Shown in pieces: positions 2 through 20,502 of a DNA stretch of 59,041 bases (the stretch's first letter is position 1; each line of letters begins with the position of its first letter). A program made the position numbers and the translations under genes. The DNA lies in contig QHUB01000024.1 of the NCBI GenBank assembly GCA_003221035.1, forward strand, positions 1-59,041, given 5' to 3'. The notes under the pieces are model-generated. The model had not been told where the DNA came from. It worked only from the letters and a program-made list of their open reading frames with translations, and ran no database searches. Source of the DNA: Gemmatimonadota bacterium. GTDB taxonomy: Bacteria; Gemmatimonadota; Gemmatimonadetes; Gemmatimonadales; GWC2-71-9.

Positions 2-682
2 TTCGCAGCCAAGCCCGGCGTCTACGGCAACGGCCGCAACTCGATCAGCTGGGATTGCGACAAGGGAAACTGCCGCAATCAGGTCAATGGAGACTGGGAG
101 GACCGCGACAACTGGAACTCGCCGTGCGATTCAGGTCCGGTCCGCGTGGCCGTGCAGAAGACCAGCGGCCGGATCACCGACCTGCGCGTGTACGTCGGCG
201 GCGAGTGGCGTCCCAACACGTCGGCAACCGATCTCGGCACCGTAAGCACGAAGGACGCCGCGTCCTACCTGCTCGGCCTGGCCCTGCGTGATGAGTCGCG
301 CGCGTCGGAGAAAGCGATCTTTCCCGCCGTCCTGGCGGACAGCGTCACCGTCTGGCCCGACCTCTTGAAAATCGCCAAAGCGGACAACGTCACCCGCAAG
401 ACGCGCCGGTCGGCGGTCTTCTGGCTCGGCCAAGCCGCGGGAGACGCGGCGACCAAGGGTCTTACCGATCTCGTGGCCGACGGCGACGCCGACCACGAAG
501 TCCGGGAGTCGGCGGTCTTCGCGTTGTCGCAGCGACCGAGCGACGAGGGTGTCCCGGCCCTGATTCGCATCGCCAAGGAGAACAAGGATCCCGATCTCCG
601 CCGGAAGGCCATCTTCTGGCTGGGCCAATCCGACGATCCGCGCGCGCTGGATTTGTTCGAGCAGCTCCTGACGAAGCCATAA
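2..682 (+). CDS. HEAT-repeat protein, 5' end outside window
   Basis: The reading frame is open from the first bases of the window, so the start lies upstream and about 226 C-terminal residues are visible. The last 120 residues form HEAT-like helical repeats: RRSAVFWLGQ, ESAVFALSQ and RKAIFWLGQ recur about every 35-37 residues. Such repeats usually act as protein-binding scaffolds. The upstream part is rich in Trp, Asp, Asn and Cys and looks secreted. No catalytic motif is visible, so the function is unknown. It ends in TAA, with an imperfect inverted repeat just downstream. Confidence 0.8.
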   Translation, partial: FAAKPGVYGNGRNSISWDCDKGNCRNQVNGDWEDRDNWNSPCDSGPVRVAVQKTSGRITDLRVYVGGEWRPNTSATDLGTVSTKDAASYLLGLALRDESRASEKAIFPAVLADSVTVWPDLLKIAKADNVTRKTRRSAVFWLGQAAGDAATKGLTDLVADGDADHEVRESAVFALSQRPSDEGVPALIRIAKENKDPDLRRKAIFWLGQSDDPRALDLFEQLLTKP

Positions 683-17630: not shown

Positions 17631-17685
17631 GAATTCCTCGAGTAAGGCCGGGAAAGTTACCCGGCTCGTGACGCGACGGTCAAGG

Positions 17686-17714
17686 TTGACTTTTCCACAG
17701 CGAGCCCGTAGCTT
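17686..17714 (+). promoter_or_regulatory. candidate dnaA promoter with internal DnaA box
   Basis: TTGACT at 17686-17691 and TAGCTT at 17709-17714 are separated by 17 bases, a plausible sigma-70 pair. Between them TTTTCCACA (17691-17699) differs from the TTATCCACA DnaA box at one position. That placement fits autorepression of dnaA. The gap also holds a GCCGGG/CCCGGC dyad at 17647-17665 on the rpmH side. Confidence 0.55.
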
Positions 17715-17757
17715 CGCCCCGCCCTTGTTGGACACCCTACCTTTTTGAAAAATCGTG

Positions 17758-19146
17758 ATGGAGCAATCGGTAAACGAAGCTTGGAAGCGCCTCCTCGACG
17801 AAGCTCGACGTGAACTTCCCGAGGCGACGGTGCGCACGTGGCTCGAGCCATCTGAGCCCATCGCGCTCGACGAAGGGCGGCTGATCCTCGGCGCGCCCGA
17901 TCAGTTCGCGGCGGAATGGAATGAGTCGAAACACGCGTCGCTGCTCGCGCGTGCCGCCGAGCGTGTGCTCGGCCGGCCGACGACCGTCGTGTTCCGCGTG
18001 CAGGAGGACCGACAGCGCCGGCCGCAGATGGATTTCTTCGTCGCGCCGCAGCACAGCGCGGCGACGGCAATCGCCGCCAACATTGGGACGACACCGCTCA
18101 ACGAACGGTACAGTTTCCAGACGTTCGTCATCGGCAAGTCAAACGAGCTCGCGGCCGCGGCGGCACACGCCGTCGCCGAAGCGCCGGGCAAGACCTACAA
18201 CCCGCTGTTCATCTACGGCGCGACGGGACTCGGCAAGACGCACTTGATGCAGGCGATCGCGCATACGGTGCTCGAGAGGAATCCCGAGACCCGGCTGCAG
18301 TACTTCGGCGCCGAGCAGTTCATCAACGACGTGATCGAGTCAATCCACGCGCGCACGATGTCGGAGTTCCGCCGGCGCTACCGCAACGACGTGGATCTCC
18401 TCCTGGTGGACGACGTGCATTTCCTGGAAGGCAAGGAAATGACGCAGGAGGAGTTCTTCCACACCTTCAACGCCCTGTTCGAGGCGCACAAGCAGATCGT
18501 GCTGACGTCCGACCGGCCGCCGAAGGAGATCCCGGGCCTGGAAGACAGGCTGATTTCGCGGTTCGAATGGGGCATGGTGGCCGATATCGGCCATCCCGAT
18601 CTCGAGCACCGCATCGCCATTCTGCGGAAAAAGGCCGAGCAGGACCATCTCGAGCTCACGATCCCGGATGACGTGCTTCGGTTCATCGCCGAGCATATCC
18701 GCTCCAGCGTACGCGAGCTGGAGGGCTGCATCATCAAGCTCTTGCTCTTCGCCTCACTCAAGAACCGCGAGGTGACGATCGAGCTGGCGCGGGACGCGCT
18801 GTCGGACAAGATCCGCCAGGGCGAAGAGGGCGCGGGATATGCGAACAGTGGGTCGGCGCCGAGCATCGACCGCGTACAGGAAGTGGTTGCGCGACGCTGG
18901 GGTGTCACGCCTGAAGGCCTTCGCTCCAAGGCGCGGACCAAGACGCTCACTATCCCGCGCCAGGTGGCGATGTACCTCGCGCGCGACATGCTGGGCATGC
19001 AGCTGGTCGAGATCGGGCAGGCGTTCGGCGGGCGGGACCACTCCACGGTGATCCACAGCGTGGACAAGGTCGAGCGCCAGATGATGCGCGACCGGACGTT
19101 CAAAGAGCGCGTCGAAATGGCCCGGCAGGAATTGTCCGCACTGTAG
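17758..19146 (+). CDS. dnaA: chromosomal replication initiator DnaA
   Basis: A 462-residue DnaA. An N-terminal domain I (about 1-85) is followed by a short linker, the AAA+ domain with Walker [11 protein letters not shown] near residue 155 and Walker [14 protein letters not shown], and the C-terminal DNA-binding domain with the signature [20 protein letters not shown] directly before the ATG is an alternative start. It binds DnaA boxes and opens the origin; boxes and a trio track lie just downstream in the dnaN gap. Confidence 0.97.
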
Positions 19147-19389
19147 CTAACATTCGAGAAATGGGGAAAACGGCGCAGGGTGTGGGTGATGGGGAAATCG
19201 TCAGAGCTATCCGCAAAGCGCCAACAGTCCCAACAGTGCACCAACATCATGTGACGTACGACAGGTGATTCACTGGTTGCGTTTTAGCGACATCGCGCAC
19301 ATATCCCCGGTGTCTACTACTACTACTAGTATTTCTATATAGAGAAGCAGTAGTAAGACTTTCCTCATTTTGGAGACGAAGCGTCCGGC
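19147..19389. other. candidate replication origin (oriC)
   Basis: The 243-base dnaA-dnaN gap has DnaA-box-like 9-mers, each 7 of 9 to TTATCCACA on one strand: 19162-19170 (TGGGGAAAA), 19181-19189 (TGTGGGTGA), 19207-19215 (CTATCCGCA); a weaker 6 of 9 match is at 19301-19309. Directly after it come a short GC-rich spacer, a CTACTACTACTACTAGTA track (19314-19331) and an AT-rich run TATTTCTATATAG. On the other strand the track reads TAG repeats, the DnaA-trio pattern of basal unwinding systems. The order box, GC cluster, trio, AT-rich matches the Bacillus layout. Confidence 0.65.
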
Positions 19390-20502
19390 ATGAAGTTCAC
19401 GATCACGCGAGAACAACTACAAGAAGGCCTGGTCGCGGTCGCGGCGGCGATTCCCGCCAAGACAACCCTCCCGGTTCTGGCCAACGTCCTGGTCGAGGCT
19501 TCGAGGCAAGCCGGCGGACTCCGGCTCTCGGGCACGGATCTCGACATCGCGGTCAGCACCACGGTCGCTGCGGAGGTGGATGCCGATGGCGCGGTAACGC
19601 TGCCGGCCAAGAAGCTGGTGGACATCGCGCGCGAGCTGCCGTCGGGCCCGGTGCGGATCACGGCGGCCGGCGAGTCGCGCGTCTCGATCGAGTCGGGTCG
19701 CTCCAAGTTCAAGCTGTTGGGCCTGCCGCGTGAAGAGTTTCCCTCCTTCCCTGTGGTGAAGTTCGAGAAGGCCTGGAAGGCGGCAGCCGGCGTGGTGCAC
19801 AAGCTCGTCGGTCATGTGGCATTTGCCGCCTCGACCGAGGAAAGCCGCCCGATCCTGAACGGCGTGCTGTGGGAGCTGCGGCCCGACCGGATGCGCATGG
19901 TGGCCACGAACGGTCACCGGCTCGCCAAGATGGACGTGCCGGCGACCGGCGGATCCACTGCCGATCTCATCGTGCCGCCGAAAGCGCTGGAGCAGATCCG
20001 CCGGCTCTATGCGGCCGACGCCGAGATTGAGCTGGCCAAGAGCGACAACCATATCGGTTTCCGCGCCGGCGGCACCCTCGTATTCTCGCGTCTGATCGAA
20101 GGTCCGTATCCGAACTACGAGCAGGTGATCCCGCGCGAGAACGACAAGCACGCCACCGTCGACAAGATGGCGATGGCGGCCGCGCTGCGCCGCATGAGCG
20201 TCGTGGCGAGCGACCAGACGCATCGCATTCGCCTCGCCTTCTCGGGCGGCAACGTGAAGTTCTCCGTGCAGACGCCCGACCTGGGCGAGGCGCAGGACGA
20301 GCTCGCGGTCACGTACGAAGGTGAGCCGCTCGAGATCGGCTTCAATGCGATGTATCTGCTCGAGATCCTGAAGTACATGCCGACCGACGAGGTGCGCTTC
20401 ACGTTCAAGGCGCCCGAGCGCGCGGCGACGATCGAGCCCGTGGGCTGGAACGATCCCGCGTCCTACATGGCGCTCGTCATGCCGTTACGCTTAGTGGACT
20501 GA
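19390..20502 (+). CDS. dnaN: DNA polymerase III beta sliding clamp
   Basis: A 370-residue beta clamp of three similar domains. MKFTITREQLQEGL opens domain I; TLPVLANVLVEA, the middle ESRPILNGVLWEL and the C-terminal YMALVMPLRL (partner-binding pocket region) are typical. It encircles DNA and tethers the polymerase, and is loaded by the complex that includes HolA at 3323. It is downstream of the candidate origin. A hairpin terminator follows at 20541. Confidence 0.97.
   Translation: MKFTITREQLQEGLVAVAAAIPAKTTLPVLANVLVEASRQAGGLRLSGTDLDIAVSTTVAAEVDADGAVTLPAKKLVDIARELPSGPVRITAAGESRVSIESGRSKFKLLGLPREEFPSFPVVKFEKAWKAAAGVVHKLVGHVAFAASTEESRPILNGVLWELRPDRMRMVATNGHRLAKMDVPATGGSTADLIVPPKALEQIRRLYAADAEIELAKSDNHIGFRAGGTLVFSRLIEGPYPNYEQVIPRENDKHATVDKMAMAAALRRMSVVASDQTHRIRLAFSGGNVKFSVQTPDLGEAQDELAVTYEGEPLEIGFNAMYLLEILKYMPTDEVRFTFKAPERAATIEPVGWNDPASYMALVMPLRLVD

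Follow-up and report, generated by a model that had tools for sequence, protein, structure and literature searches.

The DNA between dnaA and dnaN in this genome raises two questions: whether it is the part of the chromosome origin that unwinds, and how the two strands of the opened DNA might each be marked. The window, by which we mean the whole 59,041-nucleotide stretch that was analysed, is one complete contig (G000:C20) of a draft genome that totals 3.36 Mb in 113 contigs. The nearest named relatives of its DnaA are found in Gemmatimonadetes MAGs (68–69% identity). The locus is laid out as follows.

17758 to 19146, plus strand: dnaA, with Pfam matches DnaA_N, Bac_DnaA (235 bits) and Bac_DnaA_C (95.7 bits)
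19147 to 19389: the dnaA–dnaN gap
19321 to 19370, no strand: AT-richest 50 bp, 30% GC, the probable unwinding core
19390 to 20502, plus strand: dnaN, the sliding clamp, with three pol III beta domains (Pfam DNA_pol3_beta, _2 and _3)

The dnaA reading frame opens at GTG 17755; ATG 17758 is the likelier start. To the left of dnaA, the minus strand carries yidC and mnmE, and rnpA and rpmH (identified by translation) sit between these and dnaA. The gene order yidC/mnmE/rnpA/rpmH-dnaA-dnaN is the usual one at a bacterial origin. The window is around 65% GC and the AT-rich stretch reported in the original prediction proved to hold its lowest-GC 50 bp in all 59 kb; within it, TTCTATATAG is nearly invariant in the genus.

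The gap contains a repeat resembling the DnaA-trios of Bacillus, as had been predicted.

19314 to 19337, minus strand: left DnaA-trio track, five copies of 3′-GAT followed by CAT, AAA and GAT; core at 19314 to 19331

The core reads CTACTACTACTACTAGTA, and CTACTACTACTACTAG is present at 19314 to 19329 without mismatch. Allowing up to three mismatches, CTACTACTACTACTAG has two overlapping matches in the window against 0.01 expected in shuffled sequence; at one mismatch or fewer it occurs at a single place in the entire 3.36-Mb genome. Read on the minus strand from 19314, the track gives eight consecutive NAN trios, the first five being GAT. A basal unwinding system calls for at least three consecutive NAN trios with 3′-GAT-5′ the commonest and a DnaA box adjoining, and this is what is found at 19314.

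Conservation of the track was examined in dnaA–dnaN gaps from 10 species of the genus and around 70 others in its family; two sister families contributed 6 and 22 gaps, and other orders or classes of the phylum 94. Every one of the 10 genus members has the track, as do nearly all gaps in the order (Gemmatimonadota), and it is also seen in the class. The lack of conservation in related genomes that would have refuted the original prediction is clearly not observed. A score of at least 12/16 was obtained for 99% of 77 distinct family gaps and for 86% of the 22 gaps from the second family; 99% of the 77 also score above their own shuffles. Within the genus 17 of the 18 trio positions are invariant, as are nine of ten in the AT core, compared with 41% of the upstream gap. 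From the order we also selected the 67 gaps that diverge most, retaining only those below an alignment score of about 62%, a filter that reduces relatedness among the sequences but does not remove it. Aligned on the track, these give TCCAcATtTCCacaccCT CTACTACTACTACTA, a pair of boxes that share one base, followed by four bases and the trios. We note that ATGATGACGAT replaces CTACTACTA after the DnaA box in four class-level Gemmatimonadota loci (L018, L230, L238 and L247) and in two from Chloroflexi (L082 and L091); it has a different trinucleotide phase (3′-TAC-5′ on the minus strand) and is perhaps a deviant trio. A contig binned as Nanoarchaeota (L075:524-1843 and downstream) has a dnaA–dnaN gap of bacterial type that contains a long palindromic TAGTAGTAA...TTACTACTA; the binning is likely to be an error.

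Box-like 9-mers with no more than two mismatches peak in the 19-kb bin, where there are 10, against at most two in any other kilobase of the window. The boxes and box-like sequences of the gap are these.

19162 to 19215, both strands: cluster of four box-like 9-mers, namely the next four entries
19162 to 19170, minus strand: TTTTCCCCA, 7/9 match
19181 to 19189, minus strand: TCACCCACA, 7/9 match
19190 to 19198, minus strand: ATTTCCCCA, 6/9 match
19207 to 19215, plus strand: CTATCCGCA, 7/9 match
19284: TTAGCGACA, a further 7/9 box-like 9-mer
19293 to 19301, plus strand: box A, TCGCGCACA, at the position of B. subtilis box #7; clade consensus nnnTCCACA
19301 to 19309, plus strand: box B, ATATCCCCG, at the position of B. 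subtilis box #6; 6/9 match, TCCACA-type in sister families
19310 to 19313, plus strand: 4-nt spacer GTGT, variable in the genus, with the same length as in Bacillus

Three 9-mers matching at seven positions and one (19301 to 19309) matching at six had been described, correctly; box A was absent from that account. The supposed GC-rich spacer is not one: only the four bases GTGT separate box B from the trios, and the G+C-rich letters belong to the end of box B. Boxes A and B overlap by one base. Box B is invariant at all nine positions among the 10 genus members, while the genus-mates have TCGCCCACA or TCACCCACA in place of box A. Just upstream of box A, a TTGCGYTTTAGCG-like stretch (19275 to 19288) is invariant at 12 of 14 positions in the genus, and the family consensus still shows TTA/TTG there.

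An unusual box consensus had been suggested, and this is only partly right. The window's own boxes are indeed degenerate, box A differing from TTATCCACA at four positions and box B at three, but the clade core is the standard TCCACA and good boxes occupy the homologous positions. In relatives these positions give the clade consensus nnnTCCACA and ATTTCCACA, 12 and 4 nt from the trios. It is through these homologous positions that boxes of the same orientation are located 0–16 nt upstream of the trios; the letters of the window genome alone are weak. The commonest box cores in the clade are TCCACA, TCCCCA and CCCACA, which are enriched some 4–6 fold in family gaps. TCCACA is present in 38 of 49 family gaps (6.6 expected), with the other two close behind. 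Use of a wholly different box by the clade was considered and rejected, TCCACA being the most enriched 6-mer in the family. By default the published BUS program accepts a box with at most two mismatches to TTATCCACA, or a species-specific motif (PMC8287927); this is a search threshold, not a mechanism. With four and three mismatches in boxes A and B, the window genome falls outside the default cut-off; most genus-mates are likewise missed and three pass with two mismatches. In the order, 31 of the 67 gaps satisfy the box part of the cut-off, and in the class set 39 of the 53 do so. The published survey itself states that low-affinity boxes are under-counted (PMC8287927).

A better-matched box lies outside the gap.

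17691 to 17699, plus strand: DnaA box TTTTCCACA, 8/9 match, in the rpmH–dnaA gap inside TTGACTTTTCCACA

TTGACTTTTCCACA is kept in nearly all the family members listed, with TACTTT or TACAAT placed 17 nt after TTGACT. GGTCAAGGTTGACTTTTCCACA (17680 to 17715, upstream of dnaA), with the same arrangement, is conserved across the family. From its sequence, this site is probably the dnaA promoter, autoregulated through a DnaA box between the −35 and −10 elements. A scan for consensus promoters and terminators returned no site, despite the conservation of TTGACT-17-TACTTT ahead of dnaA.

The basal unwinding system (BUS) of B. subtilis oriC consists of DnaA boxes #6 and #7, a spacer and DnaA-trios (PMC6669920, PMC8287927, PMC10721633). 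The gap resembles it in its place between dnaA and dnaN, its two overlapping boxes, its 4-nt spacer, its minus-strand 3′-GAT-5′ trios, the AT-rich stretch past the trios and the cluster of boxes upstream. Bacillus relatives give TTATCCACATATTCACAGGCC CTACTACTATTATTACT, in the same register as the order consensus; in L034, for example, TTATCCACATATTCACAGGCCCTACTACTATTATTACT comprises box A, box B, a 4-nt spacer and CTACTAC. The two systems differ in that the boxes of the window are degenerate, DnaD is absent, and the far side of the core carries a mirrored NAG track (in sister orders an inverted DnaA box), discussed below. The initiator is also alike. DnaA of the window (P0001) aligns with B. 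subtilis DnaA (PDB 8btg) over 456 residues (E 6e-121), and the 11-residue B. subtilis segment GGRDHTTVIHA has an aligned counterpart. The ISM isoleucine (B. subtilis I190) corresponds to I194 of P0001 and the arginine finger (R264) to R269; substitution of I190 or R264 abolishes unwinding by B. subtilis DnaA (PMC8287927). Elsewhere in the same genome (G000:C4:46876-51459; L002, L003:373-2325) a 650-residue protein has two complete tandem DnaA-type AAA+ domains and no Pfam match to the DnaA N-terminal or DNA-binding domain. The gene preceding it resembles, by eye, an MglA-like small GTPase. Second DnaA-like matches occur in long reading frames of several relatives, such as G121:C31, G073:C199 and G089:C139.

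Local GC skew across the window has no minimum at 19.2 kb, 59 kb being too short to decide the matter. Sampled skew in G074, a relative from the order whose genome is a single contig with dnaA at base 104, passes from negative to positive close to dnaA. The 20-kb samples are positive in eight out of eight cases at 0.23–1.88 Mb, mixed at 2.1–3.0 Mb and for the most part negative from 3.2 Mb; the sample at the contig start itself is negative. This is the pattern predicted for an origin near dnaA. The only other single-contig relative sampled (G054) has noisy skew. A microsatellite that arose in the gap by chance, with the real origin elsewhere, is favoured to the extent that this genome gives no skew evidence, the window being one whole contig of a 113-contig draft. 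The track, though, is preserved over family-level divergence; its copies are imperfect yet keep a fixed position behind tandem boxes, beside an AT-rich site, within a conserved origin gene neighbourhood and, in G074, near the sampled skew minimum. Conservation of the track already contradicts the microsatellite explanation, which we consider extremely improbable.

Order, direction and spacing in register with the Bacillus system support the BUS reading put forward in the original prediction. The gap is very probably the unwinding part of oriC, with a BUS of the Bacillus kind. Its anatomy, conservation and spacing are observed directly, and from homology we infer that DnaA would bind and unwind the DNA here. 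Binding of DnaA to the upstream boxes and to the overlapping boxes A and B would position it at the border of the trio track. A filament of ATP-bound DnaA would then grow on the minus strand over the 3′-GAT-5′ trios, stretching that strand and opening the AT-rich core.

On the right of the core are two further features; the first of these had not been part of the original prediction.

19342 to 19356, plus strand: inverted NAG/trio-like track GAG-AAG-CAG-TAG-TAA, converging on the left track and at a fixed distance from it in the order
19359 to 19367, plus strand: box C, CTTTCCTCA, a weak forward box, with a forward box at +41..48 in family gaps

The inverted track has the trio letters (5′-TAG-3′/NAG) on the strand opposite the left track and in the order sits around 31 nt from the trio start. 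A match of at least 7/9 to TAGTAGTAG starts at +28..33 in 48% of the 67 divergent gaps (shuffles: mean 6%, maximum 10%). Family by family, the inverted TAG track at its best position is found in 55%, 36% and 50% of gaps, compared with 2% of 49 loci from other phyla, mostly Firmicutes. Neither control repeat, CTACTACTA or CTTCTTCTT, is enriched in the family. Conservation in the genus is lower than for the left track, with 7 of 15 positions invariant as opposed to 17 of 18. Of the family gaps, 31% have a forward box at +41..48, against a shuffle maximum of 10%, and in the second family the figure is 64%. To the right of the inverted trios the window has no inverted DnaA box, only the weak forward box C; with box C in that place, a complete second (mirror) BUS is not seen in the window.

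The inverted repeats sit in the dnaN leader and the two tracks can pair, the window 50-mer folding into a stem-loop (z −1.0). The BUS could be an ordinary one-sided system, the right-hand repeats being a hairpin or leader element of the dnaN mRNA and no part of the origin. The wider comparison does not favour this. Across the 67 species the fold energy is barely below that of shuffles (mean z −0.66). The right arm pairs with the left arm of its own species no better than with that of another (8.51 against 8.50, p 0.49), so there is no covariation, and there is no Rfam match at E ≤ 1. The spacing of the inverted track is fixed to the trios and not to dnaN, with a standard deviation of 2.5 nt to the left track against 10.8 nt to the dnaN start. 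We regard an RNA element as quite unlikely.

In sister orders of the class a different element is found at the right-hand place. Scanning 53 nonredundant class-level gaps with up to two mismatches to TTWTCCACA located an inverted DnaA box within a single 8-nt window, +46..53, in 68% (shuffles 6%, maximum 13%); a forward box is there in 4%. An offset of exactly 50 is the most frequent (15 gaps), and the median absolute deviation is 1 nt to the left trio against 5.5 nt to dnaN. Loci of other phyla, mostly Firmicutes, gave no such signal. Between core and inverted box the class set is modestly enriched in NAG/AAG repeats (z about 4) and shows no enrichment of TAG repeats proper (z 0.8). Inverted trios and inverted box are mostly found in different orders.

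In B. subtilis the strand opposite the trios is read by DnaD. Its recognition element (DRE) consists of the letters complementary to those trios and has been proposed to give the second helicase its strand (PMC10201434). The element described here is likewise conserved and opposite the trios; it differs in being a separate track further on, with DnaA-like letters, in genomes without DnaD. DnaD (PF07261) was detected in none of 21 genomes examined, the B. subtilis and L. lactis controls being positive, and DciA was found in 18. By analogy with DnaD, the right-hand element could be the site of some other second-strand protein, for example DciA itself or a DnaD analogue. Against this, the TAG/NAG letters are those that DnaA itself prefers (PMC10316083), and the sister orders place a DnaA box at the right-hand position. 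We consider a site for a protein other than DnaA unlikely.

We tentatively propose, as the likeliest role of the mirrored element, a second contact for DnaA on the plus strand. It would hold the bubble open from both ends and help to direct the second helicase, doing the job proposed in Bacillus for DnaD and its recognition element (PMC10201434). Thermotoga maritima oriC offers a likeness in its eTrio (TAG)3, TAG repeats that DnaA binds as single strand (PMC10316083). There, the inverted box lies inside the box cluster and not across the unwinding element, and the available text describes no trio track on the other strand (PMC10316083). The study also reports inverted boxes to be tolerated in head-to-tail DnaA oligomers (PMC10316083); this compatibility makes the forward orientation of box C a lesser obstacle to the mirrored model. 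Among open-access papers we found none on mirrored or inverted trios, on a box across the unwinding element or on Gemmatimonas origins, which is not proof of absence. As far as the literature we found goes, the mirror-image element on the opposite strand is new.

The unwinding system is extended here, in exact register, to a phylum that the main text of the published survey does not name. It is possible, although we think it less likely than not, that Gemmatimonadota origins use two convergent DnaA-guiding elements on opposite strands of one AT-rich core, such that DnaA, and no DnaD-like loader, would mark both strands and each end of the bubble would receive its own helicase. How the second helicase is placed on the other strand of a bacterial origin has been described as unclear (PMC10201434; PMC13326638). 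A lineage that lacks DnaD and keeps such a mirrored, DnaA-like element at constant spacing on the other strand would offer a simple, testable answer encoded in the DNA.
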